A DNA stretch of 64,000 nt from Halobellus clavatus (GTDB lineage Archaea > Halobacteriota > Halobacteria > Halobacteriales > Haloferacaceae), in assembly GCF_900107195.1 (NCBI RefSeq), contig NZ_FNPB01000004.1:62001-126000 (forward strand). Direction: 5' to 3'. Made by a program: the position numbers and the translations under genes. The notes under the pieces are model-generated. The model searched no databases, was not told the DNA's origin, and was given only the letters and a program-made list of their open reading frames with translations. Below are positions 13,660-51,200 of this stretch, in pieces; the first letter of the stretch is position 1, and every line of letters starts with the position of its first letter.

Positions 13660-14130
13660 TCATTGGCCCAGCCGAATCCACACCACGATCGTCGTGACAC
13701 CGACGGCGAGCAGTCCGGTGAGCGCCCCGAACCCCGGTGATCGCGTCGAAACAGACCGTGACGACTGTGCTGCTGTCATCGGTGTCGCGTTCGTGGCCCC
13801 CGTCGCTGTCGACGCCTCGTCAGGTGCTGCGTCCGGATCGTCCCCAGCTGCTGTCGTCGACTGCGACGTCCCTGCCGCTGTCGTGCTGCCTGTGGTGACC
13901 TGAACATCGGCAGGTCCCGGAGACGACCCGGTGGCCGTCGGCGCTGCTTCCGTGACGGCAGTGGACTCTGTCCCGCCGCCAGTACCACTGGCAGTCGTGG
14001 TCGACGGGCGGGGTATGGTGTCGGCCAGTCCCGAGCCGGAGCACGCGACTGAACTGTTCCAGCCACTGCGGCGAGCACGGTGAATGCTTCGTACTCGACT
14101 CCGAGGGGGCCGCGTCCAAAGACCTATCAA
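13660..14130 (-). pseudogene. Broken PGF-CTERM surface protein fragment
   Basis: The frame ends in a Thr-rich stalk followed by SPGFGALTGLLAVGVTTIVV and a short basic tail, a clear PGF-CTERM-like anchor. The N-terminal 35 residues, however, are Arg-rich and unlike any signal peptide. A hydrophobic signal-like stretch (FTVLAAVAGT) lies in a different frame at about 14050-14085. No folded domain separates the two. This looks like a gene that has lost its middle by deletion and is now out of frame. A short functional variant cannot be excluded. Confidence 0.5.
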
Positions 14131-14151
14131 AATTCGTGTGAAGAGACGAAT

Positions 14152-15273
14152 ATGTCCCGCGGGGTCCCGCTGACAGTGCTCGTTGCCCTCGTGATCGTCC
14201 TCTCGGTAGCTCCCGGGACGGTGACAGCGGACGCGGAGACGAACACCACGGTCGAAGCCACGACGAGCATCGACACACCCTCCCGCACGCTCACAATTCT
14301 GGGACGGGACTTCAATGTCTCGTCGTTAGGTCGCGTTGAGGAAGGCACCGAAGTGAGTGCCGACGTGACACGCCCTGGTGACGATGGGTTCCGGGTACAT
14401 CTGTACGACTACGATGGCAACCCGATTACGACGATCGAGGGCAACAGCAACGGAACGTACACACTCGGGGGAACGGACACGCTCGATCCTGGGACGTACC
14501 TGCTCGCTCTCTCGATCGACGGGAGTTTCGAGCGGGTCCAACCGGTCGTCGTCTCGGGCTATCAGTTCGCGGTCGATGCGCCCGCGGAAGCCTCTCCGGA
14601 CGATCCCGTCTCGATCGATATCGAACTGACCGGTGATGCCTCGCTCCCGAACTACGTCGAAGTCGTCGTGATGAACGACTCGATGCACCGCTATACGGCC
14701 GCTCACATCGTCGACACCAGACAGTACTCCGTAATCGTCGACGACCTCGAGCCGGGAGAGTACCGCCTGTACGTGAGCGCAAACAACGACAGCCAGGTCG
14801 CGGGGGTCAGTTCAGTGCAAGCGATGACGATCGGCGCGGGCGAAACAGCCACTTCGACGGCCCCACCGCCGGCTACGACTTCGACCGGCGATGCTGGATC
14901 GAGTACTACCCGACAGTCCGTTGCAGTGGGAACCCCCTCGTCGACGACTCGGCCTGGATCTCCCCCCACTATCACGACACCGGCGGCCGCGACGTCGATA
15001 CCGTCTCCCACACCGACGGGCGATGCTGTGTCTGGCACGAAGACGGGAGACGCATCGACATCAATGGCAACAAGAGCAGATCGACAGACGCCGGGCTCGC
15101 CGGACGCACCGGATACCGCCGATGCGGCTGATCTGGACGACGGATCGGCTACCGCAGTGACCAACGGTTCAGTCGACTCACCGACCCGCACAGCAGCGGC
15201 TACGCCGGGGTTCACCGTTGTCACGGCGGTCGTCGGGTTCGCGCTGCTGTTCGTCGCCAGACTGCGTGCTTGA
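14152..15273 (+). CDS. Thr-rich stalk surface protein, PGF-CTERM type (paralog of 23488-24612)
   Basis: A 373-residue secreted protein. The ATG at 14152 gives a typical signal peptide (MSRGVPLTVLVALVIVLSVA). A TATA-like ctatcaaaa lies 24 bases upstream, and an upstream in-frame ATG at 14080 would precede that box. The ectodomain has two beta-rich units (FRVHLYDYDGNPITTIEGN...DPGTYLLALSIDG and VEVVVMNDS...LEPGEYRLYVSAN). A Ser/Thr/Pro stalk of about 110 residues follows. The tail TPGFTVVTAVVGFALLFVA plus basic residues fits ArtA-type processing. The same layout occurs at 23488-24612, so the two paralogs flank the 2,359-residue protein. Confidence 0.78.
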   Translation: MSRGVPLTVLVALVIVLSVAPGTVTADAETNTTVEATTSIDTPSRTLTILGRDFNVSSLGRVEEGTEVSADVTRPGDDGFRVHLYDYDGNPITTIEGNSNGTYTLGGTDTLDPGTYLLALSIDGSFERVQPVVVSGYQFAVDAPAEASPDDPVSIDIELTGDASLPNYVEVVVMNDSMHRYTAAHIVDTRQYSVIVDDLEPGEYRLYVSANNDSQVAGVSSVQAMTIGAGETATSTAPPPATTSTGDAGSSTTRQSVAVGTPSSTTRPGSPPTITTPAAATSIPSPTPTGDAVSGTKTGDASTSMATRADRQTPGSPDAPDTADAADLDDGSATAVTNGSVDSPTRTAAATPGFTVVTAVVGFALLFVARLRA

Positions 15274-15506: not shown

Positions 15507-18500
15507 ATGGGGGCCTCAGCAATCCGTCAGAGCGGCCGAACAGTGCTGGTAATCGCTTTCTGTGTGTTTCTCACGACGAGTCCGGTGGCCGGGATCGGGC
15601 TGTCGTCACCGTCGGATACGGCGCAGCAATCGGCGGTGACAGACGCTACTGCTGGTCAGACTGATTTTACCGACGTCAACGCATCGGAGCTTGAGGGGTC
15701 GGGAACGCCGAGTGATCCGTACAACATCTCCAACGTTTCGGAACTGCAGGCGATGGAGGATGAGCTTGATGCGCACTACGAACTCGTCTCGGATATCGAT
15801 GCTTCAAATACCTCAACGTGGAAGAGCGGAAACGGATTCGCTCCAATTGGGGACGACTCTCGGGAGTTTGTGGGCACGCTCGACGGTAATGGATACAACA
15901 TTGACCAACTCTCTATAAATCGCTCCTCAACGAGCCGAGTCGGTCTCTTCGGACGGACTGATAACGCGACGATTCGTGATGTTACCCTCACTGAAGCGAA
16001 CATAACCGGACACAAGCGCGTCGGCGCCCTCGTTGGCTACAGTCACCAGACGACAGTGCACGGTGCGTCTGCGACCGGTCACGTGTCGGGCAACGAGAGT
16101 GTCGGTGGACTGCTCGGGTACAACAACGGACATAACTCGCTCGTCACGCAGTCGACTGCGAACGCGAATGTCACCGCCACATTCCGGATGGTCGGATCCC
16201 TCGTCGGAGGAAACGACGGAAATGCTACCATACGGCAGTCAACAGCAACAGGGAGTGTCGATGGCGGTGACCTGGCTGGCGGGCTCACGGGCCTTAATGA
16301 CGATAATTCCACTATTCTAAACACCTACGCGACGACGAATGTCAACGGGTCGTCAAGTATCGGTGGGTTGGTGGGTGTCAATATACGGAATGGTACGATA
16401 CATAAGTCATACGCGACAGGATCCGTGAGTGGAAGTGGGAACAGTATCGGGGGACTTGTCGGAAACAATATTAATAGCAGCGTAACGGCCTCGTACTGGA
16501 ATACCCAGACCACCGGTCAGTCCCAGTCGGGAGGTGAAGCGACTGCCCTCACGACGGCCAATATGACCGGCGAGGCGGCCGAGAGCAATATGTCCGCACT
16601 CGCCTTCGGTGACGTTTGGGAGACACAGCCGGACGATTATCCGGTCCTCGCGTGGCAGTTGCCACAGCAGGGAGGCGAGGACGGAGCACCGGGACCGGAT
16701 CTGGTTGTGGACGGAGAAGCCGACGGTGACGACGAGTACGCGACGATTCAGAACGGTATCGACAACGCGAGCGAGGGTGACATCGTCGAGGTACGTCCCG
16801 GCACGTACGAGGAACCCATAGATGTAAGCAAGAATATCTCCCTGATCGCTCCGGGGGGCGCCAACATCACGAACAGCTCCGCCGTCCCAGCGGCGTACGG
16901 GACGGCCGAATCCCAGCAGGGGCTCCAGATAGAGGGTCCAGCCACGCCACAGATCGCCGGATTCAGGCTGATAAACTGGACCGTGGGTGTCGACGCCACC
17001 TCCTCGGAAGGGGACTGGACCGTCCTCGACACGCAGGTTCGAGGAGCCGAAGACGGAATCGTCGCGGAGAACGCCAGCGGTGCGTGGGCGATCGAGCGGT
17101 CGCTCATCGCGGATTCGGCGTCCGAGGGTGTCGAGGCATCTAACACGACTGGTGAGTGGACGATCAGATTTACCGAGATCGTCGATGCGCGACGGGCAGT
17201 CGAAGCGACTAGCACGACCGGAGCCTGGGAGATTCGCTGGTCGGCCTTGGTTAACAGTTCGGAGGTCACGATCGACGCACGGGGAGCCGAGATCGAGGGG
17301 AATGCGACCAGAAACTGGTGGGGAGACCCCGACGGTCCCGGAGATAATGACATCGCAGGCAACGTTTCGGTTGCGGAGCCCTTGCCCGTCCCACCGACCA
17401 CGATCCTCGGCACGCTCTCGGCGGAGAGTGGTGCGTCGCTTGCCGGCGATTCCGTGGTCGCCTACACCGACCTCGACGGCGAAGAGACCGAGGTGTTCGA
17501 CGCTGGGGTGGCTGCGAACGGCGAATTCCGAATCGATACGGATCGCCCCGGCGTCAGCTACACGCTCGCCTACGCAGACGACGACTTCGGTGAGGAGCGA
17601 AACGGTGTCCCTGACCTCTATGCGATCGGGAAAACGATAGCGCCGGAGCACGTCGATCCGGAACTCCCGACGGCGCACAACGTCTCGATTCGGGTGATCG
17701 ACCAGTACGGGAACCCGATCGAGAACGCGGATCTCGCGATCGAACACCGGAACGGCGGCGCGGTTATAACGGACGGCGAACGGGATGCGACAGACGAGAA
17801 CGGATACCTCTCGGTTGACGGCGAGACGACCTTCGAGTTCGTCGGCAACCTCACCGTCGGAGCCGCGTTCAGCGGCGTCAACGGCTCCACGAACGTCCAG
17901 GTCGACAGCGACCAAACGATCACCGTCGAACTGTCCGGTGCCACAGTAAACGGGACGATCAACACCAGTACGGGGTCACCGGAGGGTGATCTGGTCGGAG
18001 CCTTCAACGTCACCGACGACGGCGTTGAGGGGGTCGACACGACCGTCGGCGCGGACGGCAGCTTCGAACTCGGCGGCCTATCTTCCGACGAGGAGTACAC
18101 ACTGGTGTTCGGCGACGACGACGCCGGTGACGTCTCGAACGACGTCCCGGACATCTATGCGGTCCAGCGCGTCTCTCCGGCCGCGGGGACTACGGATGTC
18201 GGTGAAATCGATATTCCGGAGGCCCACAACGTCTCTGTCCGCGTCGTGGACCGGACCGGGGAAGGAATCCAGGGTGCAGACGTCGCGATCACGCACAAGA
18301 ACGGTGACGCCATCGTCGAAGACGGCGAGCGCAACGCGACCAACGAGAGCGGATATTTCTCCTCGACGGACTCCGCTCCGCTTGAGCTCGCGGGCAACGT
18401 GACTGTCTGGGCGAACTACAACGGCGTAAACAACTCGACGAGCTTGCGGGTCAACAAGACGACGGGGGATCGCAGTGTCGTCATTGAGTTGACTCGGCCG

Positions 18501-21500
18501 GACGTCTCCGGAACACTCAACGCCACCGGCTCGGTGGCTGGCGATACAGTCAGCATCTTCCGCCTCACCGAGGAGGACGAGATCGAGAGCTTCGAGACGA
18601 CGGTCGGGACCGGCGGGAACTTCACAATCAGCGGCGGTTCCGCAGATGCGAGCTATACGCTGGCGTTCGGTGACAACGAAACCGGCGGCGTTCTGAACGG
18701 CGTACCGGACCTCTATGCGATACGGCGCGTCTCGCCGCCCGTCGATCTCGGTGAAGTCCCGATTCCGGATGCGCACAACGTCTCCATTCAGGTCGTTGGC
18801 CCGAACGGCGAACCCGTCGAGAATGCGGACGGTACGATCACACACACGAACGGCGATGCTATAATCGAAGAGGGGAGGCGCGACGCGACGAACGAAACCG
18901 GGTACGTCACTGTCGGTGGAGACACGACGTTCGAGTTCGCCGGGGACATCACGGCCTACGCGCAATTCAGAGGCGTCAGTAGTACGACGAACGCGACTGT
19001 CACCAGCGATCGCACCGGAAGCGATCGGGTCATCGTCGAACTCCCCGGCGTCGAGGTAAACGGGACCGTCACCGACGCCGACGGCGACGGAGTGCCAAAC
19101 AGCTCAGTCGTCTACGACGGGGCCGAAGACGGCGATGAGGCGTTCCGGAGGCAGGCGGTCACCGACGAGAACGGAGTCTACCGGACACAGCTCTTACCGA
19201 ATGGCTACGAGGTACAGTTCCGCCAGCAGAGTGAGAACATCACGTTCCCCATCGACGGCGTCCCGGATATCTACGGCGTCGGTGAGATCCCCGTCGAGGA
19301 CGGTATGCCGAACGACATCTCGCTCCCCCGCGGCAACCGGCTGCAGATTCAGGTAACGAACGGAACGGCACCGCTTGCGAATTCGACCGTCGAGATCGTC
19401 CATCTGAACCCGAACGGAGGCGCAAGTGGGGTCGAGGCACGGACGAACGAGACTGGCTGGGTCCATCTTGGCGGGACATCCGGCGTCGAAGTCGACGGAA
19501 CCATCGAGGTCGAACTGTGGTCCAAGAATTACTACGCCGATAGATCACTAACCGTAGATTCGGATGACACTATCGTCCTCGAAGCTCAAGAGTTGATCAA
19601 CGTCACTGGCAACGTGACCAACGCCAGCGGCGGTCCCGTGACCGACGGCGAAGTGTTCGCTCGCGCGACCGACGGATCGATGTCAACCGACGCACCGATC
19701 GAGAATGGAGAGTACGAGCTCGCCCTCGTACCGAACACGACATACGAACTCGGATTCCGACAGGACGGTGAGGGTACCGAAGGCGACTTCCCAACGGACG
19801 GGGCGCCGGACATCGAATCGCTCACCGTAGTCGAGACCAGCTCGGAGGATGAACGGCTGCCGGAACAGCAACTCGGCGTCGGACATCCGTACAACATCAC
19901 GGTGAAGAACCCGGACGGAACGAATGCGTCCGGCGTCCCCGTGTACGTGTCTGACAACGATGTCGAGGAGGACTTCGCACTCGGAATAGGAGGAGAAACG
20001 AACGAAAACGGCTCGTTCCTCCTGTACGGCACCAAAGAACCCGGGATCGAACTGAACGGCTCGATAGACGTCTACGTCGACCTCCCCGAGGAGTCCGGTC
20101 TCGCGGACGCGAACCGCCAGGACATCGTCGTCGACGAACCGGGGAGCATCACGATACAGCTTGATCCGGCGGTAACCGTGAGCGGAACCGTCCGCCAGCC
20201 GGACGGAGTGACGCCCGCGGCCGACGAGCGAATCCAGGTGAACGCGGCAGAGGAAGGCCGTCGTGCCGGCGATACGGTCCGAACAAACGAGTCCGGATTC
20301 TTCGATGCGCAAGTCCCAGCGGAAGGGGCGTACCACGTCGGGTTCGTGCAAGCAGAAGAAGGGACTGCGGCGCGACCACCTTATCCAGAGGATGGCGTGC
20401 CGGACTTCTACGCCATCGGCACCGTGACGAGCGACGAGGAGGCCGACCTCGGATCCGTCACGCTGCCCGAACCACACAACCTCACCGTGAATATCGTCGA
20501 TCCGAACGGCGAATTGGTCGAGAACGCGACGGTCAGGCTCTGGAGCACTGCGAACGACGCCTACCAGTGGGGCGGCGAGACGGCCGTTGTGGACGGTTCT
20601 CTCACCGTCGAGGTCAACGGCTCTGTCGGCATCCAGGGCATAGCTCCCAGCGGTGTGGACCTTCGAAGCGAGTACGTACAAACCGAAGTGACGGAGGACG
20701 ACACCGTTAACGTCACGCTTGACCCGAACGTGACCGTCTCCGGCTCCGTGGACTACGCGAACGGTAAGAACGCCACGGGATACAGAATGGGGCTATTCGG
20801 CGATGGCGGCGACTCTCGCCTCACCGACGAGAACGGCTCCTTCGAGCTGGTCCCTCGACCGAACCGGACCTACGCGCTCGGATTCAAACAGACCGACGGC
20901 GAAGGTGACAGAGTGAACTTCCGAAAGGACGGTCGCCCCGACCTCCACGCGTTCCGTACCGTCGAAATCGGTGACGAGGACCGGAACGTTGGCGACCTGA
21001 CGCTTCCCGAGGGCCATCTGGTGAACATCACCGTCGAGAACGCGGATGGCGACCCCGTTCCCAACGCGGTCGTCGATCTCAACGCTATCTCGGGATTCGC
21101 CGGGCCGTACCATCCCGGAACGACGAGAGGTGACGGCGAAGTCGTCCTCAACGGAAGCGGGGCACCCGGCATCGAAGTGAACGGCACGCTCCGCGTTCAG
21201 GTCCGTCAGACCGGACCGTATGCGTCGAACACCTCGATATACCAAATCAACGACGACCGAGAGGTTACGGTCGTCCTCAAAGATCGGGTCAACGTGAGCG
21301 GGCGACTCGTCAACGAGTCCGGGGCGGCACTGACGGATTTCGATGTCGTCGCTAGCGACTCCAGCGGGCTCTCCAGCTCGGCCTCCGATCGATCGAACGA
21401 GACCGGTAACTTCTCCATTCCGGTCGGAGCGAACGGAACCTACAGTATCACTGCTGGCCAGCGGAACACAGAAACGGATACGATCGGCATCCGCGACGGC

Positions 21501-22586
21501 GTGACTGATCTATACGAACTCGCGGTCGTCGAAACCGGTCCGAGCGACGTCATCATCGACAGACAGACTGTTCCACCCGCGGCGGGGATACTCAACGTTA
21601 CCGTTGAGAACGAGTCCGGTATTCCGGTGGAGGACGCGGTGGTCTCCATCGTCCCCAATCAGTCCGGAGCCGCGGACGTCAGCAGCGTGCAGTTAGCCAG
21701 ACCGACGGACGAAGACGGATACTTCGTCGTCGGGGGCGAGCGCGGGTTCGAGGCCGCGGGTGAGTACGTGGTTCGCGTCTCCCCGCCGGACTCTGAGGCG
21801 TTCGTCAATGACGTCAACGTGACGACGGTGAACGTTACCGATGGTGACAAAAATGTCAACATAGTGTTGAACGAGACCGACACTGCCGAACCGGAACCGC
21901 AGGCAGACATCGTCATCGAGAGTGCGAGCCTCCAAGAAGGTGAAATCGACGCTGGGGACGATATCGTCGTTGATGTCACGCTCAAAAACCGGGGTGAGGT
22001 TCAGGGGGACGCGAACATCTCCCTGAGTTCCGAGGAAGGACTAATCTCAGCCTCGGACTCTGTCACTGTCCCAGCAAGGGACAATGTCACCCGAGAGCTT
22101 CGGACAACAGTTGAAACTCCCGGTGTGTACGGTCTGACCGTTTCCGTTGACGGCGACAGCGCGCCGGTCGGATCGGTGAATGTCACGGAACTGCCTGAGC
22201 CGGCGAAGGTCACCCTCGTTGACGCGAGCGTATCGCCGAACGTAACCACTGCCGAAGAGAGTTTCGTGGTGAATGCGACGGTTCGGAATACTGGTGATGT
22301 GGAAGGGAACATCACGCTTGAAGTCGACTTCGAAGATGGACCTTCCGTACCTGTTGAAATCAACGTTTCCGGTGGCTCCAACCGAACGAAATCTCTGACA
22401 ACCTTCACATACACAAGTCCAGGAACTTACAACATCACAGTCAAAAATCAGAGCAGCGGACGCTCAGTTAGCCGAACTGTCCTAGTCAACGAACAGACCG
22501 AAACGGGAACGGGTGCGCCCGGGTTCGGGTTCGTTCCGGCGATCGGAGCACTGCTCGGGGTGATATTCGTTCTCCGGCGGCACTGA
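15507..22586 (+). CDS. Giant secreted GLUG / beta-helix / tandem-module surface protein (PGF-CTERM)
   Basis: A 2,359-residue protein with a signal peptide at residues 1-30. Its regions, in order: GLUG repeats (about 52-385; for example VGGLLGYNNGHNS, IGGLVGVNIRNGT); a right-handed beta-helix (about 402-630; YATIQNGIDNASEGDIVEV); eight tandem modules of about 187 residues (632-2125); and two CARDB-like domains (2130-2328). The C-terminus is GAPGFGFVPAIGALLGVIFV with a basic end, a classic PGF-CTERM signal. Each tandem module pairs a carboxypeptidase-regulatory-like fold (V-x-GTV) with a motif like NGVPDLYAI and a following HNVSIRVVD strand. GLUG and beta-helix domains are common in adhesins, so cell-cell or surface adhesion is the likely role. 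The GLUG part has lower GC than the rest. Confidence 0.9.
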   Translation: MGASAIRQSGRTVLVIAFCVFLTTSPVAGIGLSSPSDTAQQSAVTDATAGQTDFTDVNASELEGSGTPSDPYNISNVSELQAMEDELDAHYELVSDIDASNTSTWKSGNGFAPIGDDSREFVGTLDGNGYNIDQLSINRSSTSRVGLFGRTDNATIRDVTLTEANITGHKRVGALVGYSHQTTVHGASATGHVSGNESVGGLLGYNNGHNSLVTQSTANANVTATFRMVGSLVGGNDGNATIRQSTATGSVDGGDLAGGLTGLNDDNSTILNTYATTNVNGSSSIGGLVGVNIRNGTIHKSYATGSVSGSGNSIGGLVGNNINSSVTASYWNTQTTGQSQSGGEATALTTANMTGEAAESNMSALAFGDVWETQPDDYPVLAWQLPQQGGEDGAPGPDLVVDGEADGDDEYATIQNGIDNASEGDIVEVRPGTYEEPIDVSKNISLIAPGGANITNSSAVPAAYGTAESQQGLQIEGPATPQIAGFRLINWTVGVDATSSEGDWTVLDTQVRGAEDGIVAENASGAWAIERSLIADSASEGVEASNTTGEWTIRFTEIVDARRAVEATSTTGAWEIRWSALVNSSEVTIDARGAEIEGNATRNWWGDPDGPGDNDIAGNVSVAEPLPVPPTTILGTLSAESGASLAGDSVVAYTDLDGEETEVFDAGVAANGEFRIDTDRPGVSYTLAYADDDFGEERNGVPDLYAIGKTIAPEHVDPELPTAHNVSIRVIDQYGNPIENADLAIEHRNGGAVITDGERDATDENGYLSVDGETTFEFVGNLTVGAAFSGVNGSTNVQVDSDQTITVELSGATVNGTINTSTGSPEGDLVGAFNVTDDGVEGVDTTVGADGSFELGGLSSDEEYTLVFGDDDAGDVSNDVPDIYAVQRVSPAAGTTDVGEIDIPEAHNVSVRVVDRTGEGIQGADVAITHKNGDAIVEDGERNATNESGYFSSTDSAPLELAGNVTVWANYNGVNNSTSLRVNKTTGDRSVVIELTRPDVSGTLNATGSVAGDTVSIFRLTEEDEIESFETTVGTGGNFTISGGSADASYTLAFGDNETGGVLNGVPDLYAIRRVSPPVDLGEVPIPDAHNVSIQVVGPNGEPVENADGTITHTNGDAIIEEGRRDATNETGYVTVGGDTTFEFAGDITAYAQFRGVSSTTNATVTSDRTGSDRVIVELPGVEVNGTVTDADGDGVPNSSVVYDGAEDGDEAFRRQAVTDENGVYRTQLLPNGYEVQFRQQSENITFPIDGVPDIYGVGEIPVEDGMPNDISLPRGNRLQIQVTNGTAPLANSTVEIVHLNPNGGASGVEARTNETGWVHLGGTSGVEVDGTIEVELWSKNYYADRSLTVDSDDTIVLEAQELINVTGNVTNASGGPVTDGEVFARATDGSMSTDAPIENGEYELALVPNTTYELGFRQDGEGTEGDFPTDGAPDIESLTVVETSSEDERLPEQQLGVGHPYNITVKNPDGTNASGVPVYVSDNDVEEDFALGIGGETNENGSFLLYGTKEPGIELNGSIDVYVDLPEESGLADANRQDIVVDEPGSITIQLDPAVTVSGTVRQPDGVTPAADERIQVNAAEEGRRAGDTVRTNESGFFDAQVPAEGAYHVGFVQAEEGTAARPPYPEDGVPDFYAIGTVTSDEEADLGSVTLPEPHNLTVNIVDPNGELVENATVRLWSTANDAYQWGGETAVVDGSLTVEVNGSVGIQGIAPSGVDLRSEYVQTEVTEDDTVNVTLDPNVTVSGSVDYANGKNATGYRMGLFGDGGDSRLTDENGSFELVPRPNRTYALGFKQTDGEGDRVNFRKDGRPDLHAFRTVEIGDEDRNVGDLTLPEGHLVNITVENADGDPVPNAVVDLNAISGFAGPYHPGTTRGDGEVVLNGSGAPGIEVNGTLRVQVRQTGPYASNTSIYQINDDREVTVVLKDRVNVSGRLVNESGAALTDFDVVASDSSGLSSSASDRSNETGNFSIPVGANGTYSITAGQRNTETDTIGIRDGVTDLYELAVVETGPSDVIIDRQTVPPAAGILNVTVENESGIPVEDAVVSIVPNQSGAADVSSVQLARPTDEDGYFVVGGERGFEAAGEYVVRVSPPDSEAFVNDVNVTTVNVTDGDKNVNIVLNETDTAEPEPQADIVIESASLQEGEIDAGDDIVVDVTLKNRGEVQGDANISLSSEEGLISASDSVTVPARDNVTRELRTTVETPGVYGLTVSVDGDSAPVGSVNVTELPEPAKVTLVDASVSPNVTTAEESFVVNATVRNTGDVEGNITLEVDFEDGPSVPVEINVSGGSNRTKSLTTFTYTSPGTYNITVKNQSSGRSVSRTVLVNEQTETGTGAPGFGFVPAIGALLGVIFVLRRH
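17401..21880 (+). repeat. Eight tandem ~560-base coding modules with a GVPDLYA-like motif
   Basis: Eight diverged copies, recognisable by NGVPDLYAIG, NDVPDIYAVQ, NGVPDLYAIR, DGVPDIYGVG, DGAPDIESLT, DGVPDFYAIG, DGRPDLHAFR and DGVTDLYELA. Each is followed by a strand such as HNVSIRVVD and, in most copies, an N-E-S/T-G-Y/F turn. The protein repeats are clear, but the DNA copies have diverged. Confidence 0.8.
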
Positions 22587-23487: not shown

Positions 23488-24612
23488 TTACCGCAGTCGG
23501 GACAGTAACGCGACGGCGACGATACCCAGCACGAACATCCCACCATCCGGTAACACCGGCGTGTTCACCGGTGTGGAACTCCCGGCTTCGGAGCCGGGCG
23601 AAGCCGAAGTCGTGGGTTGCGACGACGCCGTCGGTGCACGTGTCGGATCCTCATCCACGTTGGACTCGGCTGTCGTGATCGGAGATGTTGTCGATGTCAC
23701 CGCTTGTGTCGAATTCGGACTGGTTATTCTCGTCGTCGTTGCGGGACTCATCGTGGCTGTTGTAGCACTCGCCGTAGTTTGGGTCCCGGCTGCCGGCGCA
23801 CCCGGTTCCTGGGTGGCCCCAGAGCCGCTCGTCGTAGTCGACGGCGTCTGCGTTTGTGTCGCTGTCGGGGTCTCTGTCGGAGTCTCCGTTGCGGTCGATT
23901 CGACGACCGAGACCTGATACGTATTGACGCCGATCAGTTCCTGGTACCCGTACACGGTGTTGTCCCGCTGGATGCCCGTATAGAGACGGTAGTCACCGGG
24001 CGACAGCGGATCGACATCGATCTTAGCCGTGTAGTTGAGGTCAGACGTGCGTGTCGCTTCGGTGGTGAGTGACGTCGAGTCGTTGCCGAGCGTGACCTCG
24101 ACGCTGGCCGGCGGTTCCTCGACCTCGCCGCTCACCCGATCGAGACTGAATTCGATGGTGAGCGTCGAATCGACAGCCGTCTCGTTTGGCGTCGTGTGCG
24201 AAACGGTGTAGCCGTAGATCACTAACGGTTTGATCGCTAATATCTCGTCCGCGTTGCTTTCGGGCGTGATGACGATCGCGTACGTTCCGGGATCGTATCG
24301 GCTAAGCGAGAATTGTACGTTCCCGTCCTCCTCCGGATACCTGCTCGCTCTGAGGTACTCTTGGCTGTCGAAGAGTCGAACGGCATAGGAAGTTCCCCCG
24401 GGACCGGACGTTGAGACGTCGACCGTGTCGCCTTCTGCGTATCGGCCGGCAACTGACACGGTGAACTCTCCCGAATCGGTATCGAGGGTGCGCTCCGGAA
24501 TGTCGACCTCCTCACCGAGCGTGATCTCGTAGTCGTCGGACTGCCCCGCCACTGGTGCAACACTCACACAGACGATGAGTAGCACGGCAAAGCAGACGCG
24601 AGTGGAGGGCAT
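23488..24612 (-). CDS. Thr-rich stalk surface protein (paralog of 14152-15273)
   Basis: A 374-residue secreted protein with a signal peptide (MPSTRVCFAVLLIVCVSVA). The ectodomain matches its paralog in layout: VSTSGPGGTSYAVRLFDS...YDPGTYAIVITPE, then a second beta unit with PASVEVTLGND...LSPGDYRLYTGIQ. A long Ser/Thr/Pro-rich stalk follows. The C-terminal hydrophobic segment GGMFVLGIVAVALLSRLR has no clear PGF triplet, so it may be anchored as a plain transmembrane helix or processed differently. It lies 102 bases after the FtsX-1 permease, in the same direction. Confidence 0.78.
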   Translation of the reverse strand: MPSTRVCFAVLLIVCVSVAPVAGQSDDYEITLGEEVDIPERTLDTDSGEFTVSVAGRYAEGDTVDVSTSGPGGTSYAVRLFDSQEYLRASRYPEEDGNVQFSLSRYDPGTYAIVITPESNADEILAIKPLVIYGYTVSHTTPNETAVDSTLTIEFSLDRVSGEVEEPPASVEVTLGNDSTSLTTEATRTSDLNYTAKIDVDPLSPGDYRLYTGIQRDNTVYGYQELIGVNTYQVSVVESTATETPTETPTATQTQTPSTTTSGSGATQEPGAPAAGTQTTASATTATMSPATTTRITSPNSTQAVTSTTSPITTAESNVDEDPTRAPTASSQPTTSASPGSEAGSSTPVNTPVLPDGGMFVLGIVAVALLSRLR

Positions 24613-41848: not shown

Positions 41849-42213
41849 ACACCTACCACGTTGGGCGGATGGTTTGAAGCCATCGGCGGTGAGGTGCGTC
41901 GCCAGCTCCCCGGAGCACATTTAGATACAAATTCTGTTATATCCAAATAATTACTGTTCTCTAATTATCAAATTTGAAATTTAGAAATGATAATAAATAT
42001 GGTATGAGTGGGAGTTAGCGGCGGCCATTTCAGATAGTCTCGACTACTTCGAGAGTATCGGAGGAAAGACTAGATTACCGATTATTGCTCTCTAAGAATC
42101 TAGTTCGTCAAGGATATACACTTCACCGGGTGTCCCATCCACCCATCCGTACGCGGATTTAGAATATGTTGTTGTACCTAAGTATTATAACCCTCCTACC
42201 ATATTCCGTTGAT
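41849..42213. promoter_or_regulatory. AT-rich divergent control region of the giant gene and MoxR operon
   Basis: This 365-base gap is much richer in A+T than its surroundings, above all from 41930 to 42010. It contains a nested symmetric element: attatca (41964-41970) and its inverse tgataat (41988-41994) flank aaatttgaaattt (41970-41982). This could be an operator. A good TATA-like box, tattataa (42183-42190), lies about 28 bases before the giant gene's ATG at 42214, so its mRNA is probably leaderless. No gene is seen in the gap. Confidence 0.5.
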
Positions 42214-45200
42214 ATGAGACGATCGTCTGACACAGGGACCAAACTGATAAGTTTGGTTCTAACGGGGCTGATGGTACTCTCTGTGATAGCGGGGCCGGCG
42301 TCAGCCGCTCTCGCGTCAGAGGACCCATCGAGCGCTATCGAGGAATCAGGTAGCGCCGATCTCGCGTCGCCGTATAATGCTGCGACCAACGGGACAACGA
42401 CTACGACATCTGGTGAGTCGACGGCAACCGAGACCGCTACCGAGACTGCGACTGCGACTCCGACGGAAACCTCGACTCCAACACCTACTCCGACGCCAAC
42501 TCCAACTCCGACCCCGACTCCATCTTCTACCGAAACTACGACTTCCACCTCGAACCAAACGGAAACATCTACTTCCACTACCACTCTAACTTCGACCCAA
42601 ACAGCAACCTCCACTTCCACTGAGACGGCTACCTCATCGCTTAGCACGGATAGTTCGTCATTGTCCCCTACGGCATCTAGCGGAGATGGTTTTGTAGCAA
42701 ATACTTCTGGTGTGAGTAATGGACCTTACGCTGCGACAATTAACGGTGAAGTAGAAAACCTAACGCAAGATGCTGTCGCCTACTTTGAGTGGAAACCTGA
42801 CTCGGCCAGTGAATTCCGTAAAACAGAGAACCAAACTCTCACAGGGAACGAGAGCTTCAACGATACGCTCTCGTTCCTTACCCCGGGAACGACCTACGAG
42901 TACCGAGCAGTAGTTCAGTCAGGTAGCACGACCGACAAGGGCAATCTTCGTAGTTTTACTACCGACACTCGTCCTGCAACTGAAAGCTTCTTCGAGGCAG
43001 GGAATATAGCACTATATGTCCAATCGACTCAAGGGTTACAGGTCGAAGTTGATTCCAGTGCAGTAGCATTGGAGACTGATGTCCCACAATTCGAACTCGT
43101 CGCCGCGAGTGCCCGTGTGCCAGGATACCCCAATGATAAGGAAACTGTTCCCGTCCATCGGTCGGACGAAACATTAGAATTTGACTTTGAGGATACCGGA
43201 GGTGGAAGCCTTTCAGAATTTGGTGGATCCCAGGCAGACATTGTGGCTATCAAGACGGATTCATCTCAGGGGCTTGATTTCTTCTCGCAGCTGACACAGC
43301 TTGACGATCTACTTAACGACGAGAATTCGACTGTTGAAATATTCGAAACGACGACCATCGGAGACAACGAGACCATTACCTACGACCTACAGGCTGAAGG
43401 TCGGGGGAGCGGCAACTACATTTTCTTAGCGGTTAACAACGGAAGCGTCGTCGAACAGAACGGCAGTTTCACTTTAGACCGAACACGCGTGGTCGGACTT
43501 GATTTCGCCATCGTGCAAAATGGCGATGCGAGTACCAGCGTCTCACGTCAGGACCCGTATCCATACCCAGAATTCCGCCCCGGTGAGAATGTCACCGTCA
43601 ACGCGGAAGTCCCACTGTCGGGAGATCAGAGTGAGATCACGCAGGCGGTCATTCTTTACAATGAAAATGCGTTCGACGGGAAAAGGATAGATGCTACGAT
43701 CAATGACGTACAAAACATAGATCCTGATAACATCACCATTCGCTCGGGCATTTCCGGCTTTGATGGTGTCCGTAGAATTGAGGATGGAGCGACGCTCTTA
43801 GGACAAGACCTGGGTGAAAGCGACGAAATTGGAGTCTTCACCATCGACGACGCATTCGGGTTCATTGGCGGTGGCGTCAGTGACAGATTCGAGAATAAGA
43901 GCGGCGCAGAATTAGTTGAAGCCTCGATAGTCGCCAAGGCAGATACAGGAAATGAGACGACTTTTGAGGTTGGCACACTCGAAAGCTTCCGGACGGGTGA
44001 ATCCGCCGAATATTCGATTATCCACGTTGCAGAGAACACCGAAACCGGTGAGATATACACAAACAAAGTAGACGAGAATATCACATTAGTCGAGCAGTTG
44101 GATCCGTGGGCAAATATCGAGATAGATGAAGAGGATTCGCAATTCAACGTACTAGATGGCGAACAGATAGTTATCAATGGTACTATCACAAACGTTGGCG
44201 ATTCCACCGTTGATGACACTGCGACACTATACTTAGATGGTGAAGAGGCATATGTGGAAGCGACTTTACCTCCCTCTCTTGGTGGTGGGACGACACAAGT
44301 TACGATAGACCAAGATTTCTCTCTTGAGCCTGGTGAGTCACAGAACTTCTCACTTAGTTACCCGACAGAGCAAGACGATATGGGTCTCATTGGTGAAGAC
44401 GGTCAGGCACAGTTTAGCGCTGAAGTCCGAACAGAGACTGGTAGTGACGAAGTAGATGTCACAGTCTCCAATGAGACATCCAATTTCAACGTCGAGATCG
44501 ACCGAACTAATTCGGAGACTCTGATTACGCAAGGAGGAAATCTAACCGTCGTCACGAACGTCAGCAACACTGGGGGTCTTCCCGATACTCAAACGATTGA
44601 GGCGGAGTTCGAAGGCCAGGCACTATCCGAAAATCAGGACGTATCAGTCGATCCGGAAACGACAAAAACGGTCGAAATCACCTTCGAGGACGTCAATGTC
44701 GATCCGGGGAGCTACACGGTCAACGTAAGCTCTGAAAACGACTTCGACACTATCGCTGTCGAGGTTGATCCCGGACCGGACTTCGAAGTCGGACCACTCG
44801 AAGTCACTGACACCGTCACTGCGGGCGAAGATGTCCTCGTGAATACGACGGTCGAGAACGTTGGCGGCGCGCGCGGGACACAGGAGGTAGAGTTCCTGTT
44901 CAATGATACAGTCGTCGAGAGCGAGAATGTCTCTCTTGATCCCGGCCCGGTAAGGACGTTCAACTTCAGTGTCCCCACGGACGACGCGGATATCGGTGAT
45001 CGGACCGTGACAGTCCGGACGGCGGATGATTCCGAGACTGACACAGTTACGGTTCAGGCCCCGGCCGAGTTCCAGGTCGAGATCAACGAAGCCGCTTCCG
45101 ATAGCACCGTCGTCGCGGGCGCGAACGCGACGATCGTTGCGAACGTGACCAACGTCGGCGATGTGGTCGACGAGCAAACCATCTCGCTGAATCTGGTCGG

Positions 45201-48200
45201 TCAGCAGGAGGCAACCAAGACGGTCGACTTAGAAGGTGGTACAGATGAGTCGGTCACCTTCGAGTATGACACCCCCGAGGCCGCTGCTGGCGAAACGTTC
45301 AATTTCACTGTCGCCAGCGAGGACGATACCGCCGACTGGAACGTCTCGGTCGTCGAAGGGGCCACCTTCGAGGTCCAGTCGCTTACGGCTCCCCCGAACG
45401 TCTCCGTGGGCGAAACCATCGACGTAACCGCGGTCATCGAGAATACCGGCGGGGTAGAAGGGACCCAGAACGTTGAGTTCCTGTTCAATGACACGGTCGT
45501 CGAGACCAACGAGAGCGTCACGCTCGGTTCCGAACAGTCGACAGAGCTCACCTTCACCACCAACGAGGTAACTGTAAACGATGTCGGAGACCGGAACCTA
45601 ACGGTTCGGACCGACGACGATAGCCAAAGACAGTCGGTCACAGTCCTCGAACCGGCCGAGTTCCAGCTCGACATCAACGAGGCCGCCTCCGACAGCACTG
45701 TCGTCCCTGGCGAGAACGTGACGATAGTCGCGGACGTGACCAACGTCGGCCAAACGTTCGGCGAGCAAGTGATCACGCTGAGTCTGAATGACCAGCAGGA
45801 AGCAACCGAGACGGTCGAATTAGACGGTGGTACGGGTGAATCAGTCACCTTTGAGTATGAGGCCCCTGGCGCTGAGGTTGATCCCGGCGACGAACTTAAC
45901 TTCACTGTCGCCAGCGATGACGATACCGCCGAGTGGCCGGTCACGGTAGTTCAGGGTGCGTTCTTCGAGGTCAGTATCGACGACTTCGACGACAACGTTT
46001 CAGTCGGAGACACGATCACCGTGAATGCGACCGTCGAGAACACCGGGAATGAGAACAGTACGAAAGATGTCGAGTTCCTGTTCAACGACACGGTCGTCGA
46101 GACTAACGAGAGCGTCACGCTCGGTTCCGGTAATTCGACGAAGTTCACTTTCACAACCAACGCGACGACTGTTGCCGATGTTGGCGATCGGACCGTGACG
46201 GTCCAGACAGAAGACGATAGCGCGACCGAAACGGTCAGGGTCCTCGAACCGGCCGAGTTCCAGGTCGATATCGACGAAGATGCTTCCGACAGTACTGTCG
46301 TCCCCGGCGAGAACGTGACGGTCGTCGCGAACGTGACTAACGCTGGCGAGGAGTTCGGCGAACAGGAAATTGCGCTGAAATACTTTGCTGATCCGGTTCC
46401 GAACGAAAGCGAGCGTATCGGCCTGAACGCTTCCGAGACAAAGTCACTTACCTTTGAGTTCAGTACCGGATCTCGACCTCCCGGTGCCAGTATCAATCTC
46501 ACGGTCGTCAGCGATGACGATACTGCCGAGTGGACGGCCACAGTCGTCGAGCCCGCGTCCTTCGATGTCGACATCGATGAGGAAGCCTCCGTGACGAATG
46601 TCACGCAAAACGGGACCGTCGTGATCAGTGCGAGCGTGACAAACGTCGGCGATGTCAGCGGTGAACGGCAGATCGACTTCAACCTCACACAAGACGGTGA
46701 GACTGTCACAACCGACAGCGAGACCGTTTCGCTTGATAGCGGAAGTTCGGAGACGATCGAATTCAACTACACGACATCTGAGAGCGACCGTGGTACTTAC
46801 ACAGCGAACGTCTTCGGCCCCGTCGATACGGACTCAGTCGAGGTCACCGTGAACCGTCCGGCGGAGTTCGACGTCAACATCACTGAACCGGACGAGGGTG
46901 CTGAGGTCGTGGCGGGAGAGGTTATTAATGTCACCGCAGAGATCGAGAACCTCGGAGACTTCTCTGATACCCAGACCGTTCGCCTCCTGGCGAATGAGAC
47001 ACCGGTCAACAGCACCGAACTCGAACTCGATGCGGGCGAAAACCAGACCGTCAGCCTCGAATACCAGACGAGAGAGAACGACACTGGTGACCTGACGTTC
47101 ACCGTTGCGAGCGCGGACGACAGGGACACGCGCAACATCACGGTCCTACAGCCGGCCGAAGTGGTCTACTCCGATCTCACGACGTCCGCTACGGCCGTCA
47201 CTGTCGATCAACCCGTCACCATCTCCGCGCTTGCCGAGAATAGCGGCGATATCGACACTACAGAAGAAGCGACACTACAGATCTCACAGGCAGGAGAGAC
47301 TGTGGCCACGCTGAATGACACGGTCACACTCAACGCCTCCGAGCAGAAACAGGTCCAGTTCGAGTACGCCTTCAACGATACGGGCACGTACAATCTGACG
47401 ATTGTCGGCTCGGGACTCGAAGAAGATATCTCCGTCTCAAATCAGGTCGTGGATCTATACCTCCAGGCCAACGAGACGCAACCCCTGAACGGCAGTGATG
47501 TCCGATTCACCGTGACGAACGCGACGGCCGACGGCGATCCGATCTCGAACGCGACAGTTGCCGTGAACGGCGCGAGTGCGACGACCAACAGCTCTGGCGT
47601 GGCAGTCATCGCGGTGACCGGCAGCGACAACGTCACCGCGACCGCGAGCAAAGAGACGAACGAGACGACTGATACCGCATTCAACAGTTCGTCGGTCGGA
47701 CTCTACGTCCGCCAGCCGTCCGATATCGTCTACAGCGATCTCTCGGTCACGCCAGTCACCCCCGCGACGGGTGAGAACGTGACGATCAACGCCACCGTCA
47801 CCAACACCGACGGTATCGAGAGAGTGTACTTCGCGTCCGTCTACGCCGATGGAGAACAGATCGGCGACTTCATTGGCGGCTCACTTGCACCGGGTGCAAA
47901 CGATACCCTGAGCTTCACCACGTCGTTCGACACCACGGGCATCCGCGAGATTACCGTTGGTGACGCCGACCTCGAGGGCGAGGTCCAGACCGCACCGACT
48001 CCCGTGGCCGTCGAACTCGCTGAACGTCAACTGAGTATCGACGCAAACGAGACAACGATCAACCGTACCGAGACCATTCAGTTCACCGTCCGCGCGGACG
48101 GCGAACCGGTGAACGCGTCGCTGAGCATAAACGGCGACCAATACCGCACCGGCGACGATGGTACGGCGAATATCACCTTCGACGAAGCGGGTGACTTCAC

Positions 48201-51200
48201 GATCACGGCGACCAAAGAACCGACAGAAAGTGTCGCCTACCTCTCGGATTCGATCGACGACGTCCGAGTCAACGCTCCGACCGATATCCGGGTGACCGAC
48301 GTCGCGCCGCTGCGGACCCAGATCTTCACCGGCGACACCCTGACCGTCGAAGCAACGGTCGAGAACCTCGGCGACCTTCGCGGCTCCGAACAGGTAAACT
48401 TCAGCTTCCAGACGGAGAAGAGCGAGACCGTCACACTGAACGGCAGCGAACGGACGACGGTCGTCTTCACTGCTACCGCGAACGAGACGCCGGGCCAGTA
48501 CCCGGTCGTGGTCGAAGACGATACGTTCCAGACGATCACGGTCGAACCCGCAATCGCCACGACCGGATTCACCGTCCCGTCGACGGTGACGATCGGTGAG
48601 GAACTCGTTGTGGCTGCGACCGTCGAGAACCGAGGATCGACTTCAGGTGAGAAGACCGTTCGCCTGAACGTCAACGGGACGGAGAGAGACAACGAGACGA
48701 TTACCGTCCCCGCCAGCAGCGCTCAGACGGTTGAACTGACCTGGGATACCACCGGCAGCAGTGTCGGGGTGAAGAACGTCACCGTCGATGACATCTCCAG
48801 GAAGACGGTGACGGTCGCCCGCCAGCGCGTCGGACTCGACGTCGCCACGAACGCGACGTCGTCGACTACGACAGGCGAACCGGTTCGGTTCACCGTCACG
48901 GCCGACGGCAGTCCGGTCGAGGGCGCGACGCTCCGCGTGGCTGGTCAGACGCTCACGACGGGCCCAGAGGGGACTAACACGACCACGTTCGATTCCCCCG
49001 GTCGGTACACCGCACGCGCGAGAAACGATGACACCGACACGCAGACCTTCCAGCGTGCCGCGACGAGCCTGACGATCCGCGAGCCCGCGGACGTCAATGT
49101 CACTGATGCGTTCCTCCTGACCGACGAGGCGTTCGTTGGCGATGATGTGGACGTGCTCGCAGTCGTCGAAAACGACGGCGGCGTGTCGGGTGACCTCGAA
49201 CTCACTGTCACCAACAGCACGGAGGCGACGGTTGGAAACCGCACCGTAACACTCGGTGCAGGTGCATCTCGGACGGTCACGCTGACGACCCAACTCAACA
49301 CGACCGCCGAAACGGAGACACTCACCGTCAATGACATCGAGGCTGGCACGCTCACGGTCGACCCGCAGTCGGTCGTGACTGCCAGCTCAGTGAACGCCAC
49401 CGCGGTGCGGACCGACGACGTCGTGCGTGTCAATGCGACGATCACCAACCGCGGCAGCACCGAGGATACGGACGGCATCAACGTCACCTTCACCCTGGGC
49501 GATCAGACGAAATCAGTGAACGATACGGGCCCGATCCCCGGTGAGGCTAACGATACGGTCTCGCAGACGTTCTCCTTCGACGGAGATGACGCGGGGACGA
49601 CCTTCGAAGCGACGGCCGCTGGCCCGACGAACGAGCGCAGTGCGGGCACCGTCAGCGTCGCTACTGAAGTGGTCGATCTCGACATAAGCGTCGAGAACTC
49701 GACGGTCACCGCCGGCACGCCGCTGAACTTCACCGTCACGCGGACTGACGCAGAAACCCTTGACACGGCCGAAGTCCAGATCGCGGGTGAAACGCTCAAT
49801 GTCGAAGACGGAACGGCAAACATCACCCTCAACGAAGGCGGCCAGTACACAGCAGTCGTCACGAAGGAAAGTACGGACGGGACCAGCTTCAACGGCGACT
49901 CGGTCGACGTGACGGTCGAAGACCCGGCTCAGATCGAAGTTGATGACGCCTACAGACTCACGAGACAGGCCTACACCGGTGACAACGCGACGGTCGAGGC
50001 CGTCGTGGTGAACAACGGCGATCTCTCCGGGACTGAGACGATCAATCTCACCGACAGCAGCGGAGAAGTACTCGCCAACGAGACCGTCGAAAACCTCGGC
50101 GGAGGTAGCAACACTACGATCAGTCTGAACGCGTCGTTCACCTCCGCCGGAACGCGGACGCTCTCGGTGGGCGACGAAGTGGCCGGTCAGGTCCGGATCG
50201 ACCCGCAGACGGTCGTGACGGGCTTCACGGTCACGAACACGTCGGTGACCGTCGGAGAGCAGGCAACGACGATCAACGCGACGGTTCGTAACCGTGGATC
50301 GACGCTCGACGAGAGCTTCGCCGTGAACCTCAGCGTCGGTGGTGAAGAAGACGTGGCCAACGACACCGTCACCGACCTCGCGGCGGGCGACGTGGCCTAC
50401 GTCGAGTTCACCCGCACTTTCGACACCGTCAATTCGACGAGGGTCGCGGTCAACGAGGAGCCGCCGACGGGCATCCTCGTCACCGAGCGGATCGAGAACC
50501 TCAACCTCACGGTCGAAACGCAGAATCCGACCACCGACGACGAGGTCGTCTTCAACGTCACGAACAGCACCGATGCGGCCGTTGCGAACGCGACGATCAT
50601 CGCGGGCGGCCAGCTCCTCGAGACGAATGCGAGCGGGTTGGCGAACGCGACCCTCACCTCTGGCACGATCACGGCGTCCGTGACGAAGGACGGCGCCCAG
50701 ACCACGTACAACCCCGATAGCGTAACCGTCACCGTGAACCGTCCGGCTGACGTGCGTCTGCTCGGCGCCGACGTGTTGAACAACGAGCCAGTCTACGCGG
50801 GACAGAGCGTCGACGTCGAGGTCGACCTGCTGAACATCGGTGGCATCGCCGCTGACCGGAACGTCACGCTGGCGACCGACGACGGAACGGTGAATTACTC
50901 GATCGAGACGATTCCCGCCGGTGATGCACCGACGGTGACGCTCTCGACGCAACTCAACGAGACCGGTGAACAGACTCTCACCGTCTCGCACAATGAGACG
51001 AACGCGGACCGGCAAGCGACTGTCACGGTTGACGAGGCAGCACGCGTCGCCAACTACACCGTGAACGAGACGGCCGTCTCAGTGGACGAGTCCGTCCGCG
51101 TGCAGGCGAACCTGGTGAACGACGGCGGTATCGACGACTCCGTCCCGGTGAACCTCTCGGTCGACGGATCGCAGACCGAAAGCCGGACCGTCGACGTCGC

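Follow-up and report, generated by a model that had tools for sequence, protein, structure and literature searches.

A conserved turn motif as a putative inter-domain brace in the tandem transthyretin-like modules of a haloarchaeal surface protein

The closest described systems to the protein discussed here are built from beta-sandwich domains of the transthyretin class. They include the Pfam family CarboxypepD_reg (PF13620), NOMO of the BOS complex and the S-layer protein SlaB, both of which contain tandem transthyretin-like domains, and the CnaB, SdrD B and Gram-positive pilin stalk domains, which belong to the same fold class and are likewise tandem units of surface proteins. The isopeptide bonds of CnaB-like domains join Lys to Asn or Asp (PMC12617251).

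Very large secreted surface proteins of haloarchaea are hard to annotate past 'carboxypeptidase regulatory-like'. Here, we analyse one such protein, encoded in a 64,000-nucleotide stretch of DNA from Halobellus clavatus (the window), and propose that a conserved turn, which may brace the two halves of each module, stiffens its tandem transthyretin-like domains in place of isopeptide bonds such as those found in bacterial pilins.

The gene and its eight-module array

The module gene encodes a protein of 2359 residues with the following features:

15507-22586, + strand: whole gene, 2359-aa surface protein (open reading frame and translation; ortholog in the same-genus genome G126)
15507-15596, + strand: N-terminal signal-peptide-like stretch, aa 1-30 (by eye)
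15684-16661, + strand: GLUG-motif region, about aa 60-385 (Pfam Glug PF07581; borders approximate)
16695-17381, + strand: probable parallel beta-helix or NosD-like region, about aa 397-625 (mostly by eye)
17397-17939, + strand: module 1, 181 aa
17601-17627, + strand: motif copy 1, NGVPDLYAI
17940-18497, + strand: module 2, 186 aa
18138-18164, + strand: motif copy 2, NDVPDIYAV
18498-19049, + strand: module 3, 184 aa
18696-18722, + strand: motif copy 3, NGVPDLYAI
19050-19595, + strand: module 4, 182 aa
19254-19280, + strand: motif copy 4, DGVPDIYGV
19596-20171, + strand: module 5, 192 aa
19797-19823, + strand: motif copy 5, DGAPDIESL
20172-20729, + strand: module 6, 186 aa, the copy modelled with AlphaFold2
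20391-20417, + strand: motif copy 6, DGVPDFYAI (residues 74-82 of the model)
20730-21287, + strand: module 7, 186 aa
20928-20954, + strand: motif copy 7, DGRPDLHAF
21288-21872, + strand: module 8, 195 aa
21495-21521, + strand: motif copy 8, DGVTDLYEL
21873-22496, + strand: two CARDB-like or Ig-like repeats, about aa 2123-2330 (by eye)
22518-22583, + strand: PGF-CTERM-like tail, aa 2338-2359 (PGF, hydrophobic stretch and RRH by eye)

The eight diverged modules lie in one open reading frame and have lengths of 181-195 residues with a mean of 186.5, which confirms the original prediction of eight modules of about 187 residues; the borders, 17397-21872, are only a few bases from the predicted 17401-21880. 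With a regular expression the motif is found eight times, at residues 700, 879, 1065, 1251, 1432, 1630, 1809 and 1998 (spacing 179-198 residues), such that every window module has one copy of the form (N/D)-(G/D)-x-(P/T)-D. Across the relatives the motif is mostly [DN]-G-x-[PAVT]-D-[LIVF]-[YHAF], usually after (F/Y)-P-x. Copies 2-8 are only 24-48% identical to copy 1; the tandem array is therefore old and diverged, in contrast to a simple repeat.

Orthologs of the protein are present in three genomes of the same genus, the best pieces being 63%, 53% and 56% identical, and the G126 ortholog is 63% identical over residues 485-2358. The module order is kept across species: each of modules 4-8 of the window matches its same-numbered counterpart in G126 at 50-77%, with much lower values against the other modules of the window array. 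A recent DNA amplification of modules 4-8 was therefore rejected, since the same-numbered modules of other species are closer than these modules are to each other. Modules 1-3 (17397-19049) are the most alike of the array, at 40-48%, and have same-number partners in G126 at 64-68%; they may represent a later, younger expansion. A viral origin was considered and rejected as well, a peptide-pattern scan of viral contigs giving 44 stretches and no relative among them. An exact 21-base pattern searched in the own genome gave no match.

Outside the array, Pfam Glug matches the window protein with 44.3 bits in four stretches (cut-off 20.5), and the GLUG region is also matched in many proteins of the same genus. 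The NosD match (NCBIfam) is weak, with 20.6 bits at a cut-off of 300, and covers residues 414-457 only. The Pfam search of the window protein gave no CARDB match, and residues 2231-2325 have weak PKD and Filamin matches, both under the cut-off. The tail scores 10.7 bits with PF18204 (cut-off 18.8) and 12.4 bits with TIGR04126 (cut-off 24.5), that is, under the cut-off in both cases; read by eye as PGF-CTERM-like, it suggests that the protein is probably an archaeosortase-anchored surface protein. The stalk and surface role considered below is based on the domain context.

In the window, the region of the module gene lies between two genes for small surface proteins, 14080-15273 and 23488-24612. 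The product of the latter matches homologs of the product of the former at 26-28%, and the two look like distant relatives of each other. In three same-genus loci the module gene is adjoined by a relative of 14080-15273, which encodes a small protein of the PGF type. The window also encodes, at 42166-56580, a giant of 4804 residues, in which 12 stretches match choice-of-anchor-D and 17 match CARDB, together with PGF-pre-PGF. Sequence homologous to parts of this giant is found immediately upstream of the module gene in two of the three same-genus loci.

Predicted fold and conservation of the motif

The AlphaFold2 model of module 6, obtained with 29 rows from the window and Haloferax, has a pLDDT of 94.0 and a pTM of 0.87, and contains 14 strands in two groups of seven. 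Taken separately, each half matches transthyretin, carboxypeptidase D/N/M, CnaB and SdrD B structures with Z values of 8-11 over about 75-95 aligned residues. According to the model, the module is thus a pair of seven-stranded transthyretin/carboxypeptidase-regulatory-like sandwiches. The adjacent modules 6 and 7 were also predicted as a pair (24 rows, pLDDT 92.8, pTM 0.77, with loop residues 63-68 below 50). The drop in pTM from 0.87 for the single module to 0.77 for the pair would agree with stiff modules connected by softer joints, but the pTM also decreases when a protein is longer.

The motif had been proposed to lie between two beta-sandwich halves. The two halves are indeed present in the models, but the motif is found inside half 1 and not between them. 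In the module 6 model it is an ordered turn (residues 74-82), which runs into the strand formed by residues 79-86. The ten-residue block in which the motif starts has a pLDDT of 94, while the loop block preceding it has 67 in the single module and 52 in the pair.

CnaB and pilin structures are among the best fold matches, which raises the question of whether the protein is a fibrillar adhesin and its modules isopeptide domains of the CnaB type. Such domains would have a conserved Lys together with Asn/Asp and a catalytic Glu. Lys accounts for only 0.93% of the residues, and the most Lys-rich column among the 172 modules described below contains 11%. Unlike the CnaB, SdrD B and pilin domains, the window-type modules lack a conserved Lys for an isopeptide bond, and on this ground CnaB isopeptide domains were ruled out, with practically no chance left for this assignment.

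For the comparison with relatives, three sets of modules were collected, with identical sequences included once: 109 modules (>150 model columns, E<1e-8), 157 modules (>140 model columns, E<1e-6) and 172 modules (>140 model columns, >45 bits). The Haloferax loci L056-L059 are repeats of contigs already included and were excluded from the sets. The loci L105-L110, from outside the class, were excluded on purpose from the set of 172, which may contain a few motif-less rows (e.g. L116). The residue numbers used below (D69, D73, Q57, E149 etc.) are those of the 172-module alignment.

The expectation that the motif is better kept than the rest of the module is borne out. When all stretches of nine columns are ranked by relative entropy, it comes first among 176 in the eight copies and second among 178 in the 109 modules (31 loci, the window locus included), where the top-ranked nine columns share seven with it. 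When each locus contributes a single module (31 rows, 100 draws), the median rank is 2 and the range 1-5. Between the window and the G126 ortholog, 64 of 72 motif residues are identical, compared to 933 of 1416 elsewhere, and the corresponding numbers for G288 are 54 of 72 and 750 of 1404. At the residues identical in G126, the codon differs at 26 of 64 in the motif and at 385 of 933 elsewhere. The motif is thus better kept in the protein while codon changes are equally frequent, which points to selection at the protein level and not to recent copying of DNA.

Coupling of the motif to the second half

We now turn to the covariation between the two halves, for which the set of 172 haloarchaeal modules (effective number 120) was used. 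Of the 80 strongest couplings to half 2, the half-1 blocks over columns 61-80 account for 9, 8 and 9, and the other half-1 blocks for 0-6 each. The covarying pairs include R68-V98, V98-G147, Y75-H120 and A76-H120. When the halves were re-paired within proteins (113 modules, 23 proteins), the observed value for the motif block was 4.44, compared to a mean of 1.73 and a maximum of 2.09 in 40 nulls. The other half-1 blocks likewise lie above their nulls, with observed values of 3.0-3.4 and a null maximum of about 2.2, and the motif block is therefore the most strongly coupled part of half 1 but not the sole one.

In 94 consecutive module pairs, the motif block gives a best-10 mean z of 4.45 against its own half 2, with five pairs above 4, whereas against half 2 of the preceding module the value is 3.04 and no pair is above 4. 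This difference is weaker for other parts of half 1. It is important to point out that covariation could be separated from shared ancestry only partly. For Y75-H120, the module tree provides 6 pairs, with an average of 2.3 one way and 0 the other way and a median p of 0.5.

The distribution of N-x-S/T sequons was also considered. The array (17397-21872) contains 56 of them, compared to 14.8 +/- 3.5 when its residues are shuffled, and is likely a heavily N-glycosylated stalk, although part of the excess may stem from beta-strand patterns. In the mapped columns of the 172 modules there are 984 sequons, only 24 of which fall in columns 61-80 and 16 in columns 141-150 (which hold E149), the two poorest blocks. 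That the motif block and the stretch 141-150 are both glycan-poor is what a buried joint predicts. The depletion of sequons and the half 2 covariation support the original prediction of a contact or fold-critical site.

On the basis of these results we suggest the following arrangement. The eight-module array would form the stalk of a cell-surface protein. In half 1 of each module, strands 5 and 6 are predicted to be joined by a long loop, the first part of which is floppy and the end of which folds into the (F/Y)-P-x-(D/N)-G-x-P-D-(L/I/V/F)-Y turn. This turn would pack on half 2 of the same module, near H97/V98, H120 and the G147-x-E149 strand, and its D69 (or N69) would be held by the last residue of strand 5, Q57 (or D57). 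The packing would set the angle between the sandwiches, so that the stalk becomes a row of stiff two-domain rods. We lean towards this reading, i.e. the motif as an inter-domain brace in a surface stalk, in view of the repeat, the conservation, the covariation, the predicted fold and the sequon pattern; from these we infer the contact (at the level of sequence), the bracing, the stalk function and the anchoring.

Another option is that the motif is a fold-critical turn within half 1 that caps the strand 5-6 loop and makes no contact with half 2. Its location inside half 1, directly before the strand of residues 79-86, would agree with this, as would its coupling inside half 1, where Q57-D69 is the strongest pair. 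However, the couplings to half 2 peak in the motif block and are absent to the preceding half 2, and the likely partner stretch 141-150 is also sequon-poor, which makes a role as a turn only rather unlikely. One could also envisage a binding site for a ligand or partner, repeated eight times along the stalk: a conserved motif behind a floppy loop could serve as a recognition loop, and sequons are few at the motif. However, the floppy part of the loop is itself not conserved, and conservation in diverged modules, within proteins of very different size and ends, fits a structural role better than one ligand. We consider such a site very unlikely.

Columns 57 and 69 provide additional information about the proposed brace. 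Among the 172 modules, Q57-D69 occurs in 126, D57-N69 in 17 and E57-N69 in one, and neither Q57-N69 nor D57-D69 was found. In every same-genus ortholog examined, the D57-N69 type of motif is found in the modules with which the window-type array begins. The swap needs 4 changes on the module tree, where only 2 independent supported pairs are available and the sign test gives a p of 1, having no power at this number. As a sequence pattern, the acid/amide swap is compatible with two residues joined by a hydrogen bond, or with two residues that bind one metal while the charge stays constant. The acids in this region are nearly invariant: D or N at column 69 in 165 of the 172 modules, D73 in 156, and an acid at column 149 in 164 (E in 157, D in 7). 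D73 comes from half 1 and E149 from half 2, so that each half contributes one conserved acid.

In cadherin joints the rigidity depends on divalent ions. Similarly, D69 and D73 of half 1, E149 of half 2 and Q57/D57 could bind Ca2+ or Mg2+ between the sandwiches, which would make the rigidity ion-dependent. The near-invariant acidic residues do come from both halves, and when D57 replaces Q57, N69 replaces D69, which leaves the formal charge of the set unchanged. However, a plain hydrogen bond would lead to the same swap, and the modules are rich in acids throughout (16.3% D+E). EF-hand and thrombospondin-3 type calcium loops have acidic positions upstream; these are missing here, the consensus at columns 65-68 being S-F-P-R, and a loop of either type was rejected for that reason. 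We regard the metal site as possible, if somewhat unlikely. The more specific proposal of a haloarchaea-specific two-domain stalk unit, with the halves clamped by a divalent-metal joint (D69, D73, E149) and with an interchangeable Q57-D69 / D57-N69 pair, is tentative and would have to be called unlikely. If it were true, divalent ions would set the stiffness of a surface stalk even in near-saturated salt.

Distribution and relation to described families

With a 68-row model, module matches at E<=1e-15 were found in at least 72 of 391 Halobacteria-class genomes and at least 30 of 86 genera, and in at least 35 of 170 genomes of the window's own family, Haloferacaceae. These numbers are lower bounds, since at most 8 candidates per genome were scored (19 in the family search); the class and phylum samples comprise 391 and 392 genomes and not all. 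In the phylum sample, at least 17 'same phylum' genomes have weak matches with the same model, the best E being 6.7e-11. In the loci of 7 of these 17, the motif is present in 0 of 5 matching open reading frames, and the other 2 loci gave nothing at E 1e-3; the expression used is strict and also misses the degenerate motifs of the in-class single modules L111, L113 and L115. The weak relatives in these five reading frames, from outside the class, consist of ordinary regulatory-like domains in tandem.

The module proteins contain 1-9 modules. Most are long and have a PGF-type tail; in others the start is twin-arginine-like or lipoprotein-like, or the end resembles a dockerin (all by eye). In Haloferax (genus g6), the proteins of L069, L067, L076, L073 and L066 end in a dockerin-like loop pair and not in a PGF tail (by eye). 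The own genome also encodes, on contig C20, a 630-aa open reading frame (L111) with a single degenerate module, TDGVPLIYSF, fused to an alpha/beta hydrolase-like part and with a twin-arginine-like start (by eye).

Among known families, CarboxypepD_reg matches the whole window protein with 109.7 bits in 8 stretches (cut-off 32.3). On single modules, 2, 4 and 8 pass (35.0, 46.2 and 47.2 bits), module 1 reaches 32.1 and the other four are under the cut-off. The halves share the seven-stranded transthyretin-like sandwich with this family (in the model, with transthyretin and carboxypeptidase D at Z 8-10). The best stretch is located before the motif in modules 4, 5, 6 and 8 and starts after it in modules 1, 2, 3 and 7. 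In the former four, it ends at residue 58-66, corresponding to profile position 54-64 of 82, and the family model thus does not cover the whole of half 1 with the motif and strands 6-7.

DUF7382 (PF24107) matches 32 of the 68 module members, in the window modules at half 2, but the match begins after the motif. The whole protein scores 31.2 bits at a cut-off of 27.4, and no single module passes (best 20.2). Another part of the same genome encodes a strong member of this family (105.6 bits), and no paper on DUF7382 was found in the literature searched.

Among the matches listed, no Pfam family that passes its cut-off has a best stretch including the motif in any of the eight window copies, and the motif is spanned only by a match to DUF7305 in module 4, which scores 15.4 bits at a cut-off of 27. 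No NCBIfam model fitting the whole module appeared. A family that already defines the motif, set beforehand as the refutation of the original prediction, was searched for in Pfam and NCBIfam and not found. The statement that no named family applies thus holds for the motif, which none of the searched family models defines, but not for the halves, both of which are relatives of CarboxypepD_reg (matched by 66 of the 68 members at E<=0.01). The literature search, in those parts of the texts that were available, found no paper describing the motif.

Among solved structures, none was found with the same two-domain arrangement, NOMO and SdrD being matched over both halves only at an rmsd of about 15 A. 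For NOMO, 9c7u_B matches over two domains and 151 residues, and the rmsd of 14.9 implies an arrangement that differs from that of the module. SlaB (8qox_B) matches half 2 over 84 residues with an rmsd of 2.2, but aligns with profile positions 80-188 only and has no sequence match over the motif.

A definition of the module would yield a domain-database entry, and the combination of two domains and a diagnostic motif would make such stalks recognisable, countable and alignable module by module. With halves of known fold and a motif outside the family models, undescribed in the libraries and literature searched, the module is a new haloarchaeal two-domain variant of the transthyretin-like fold.
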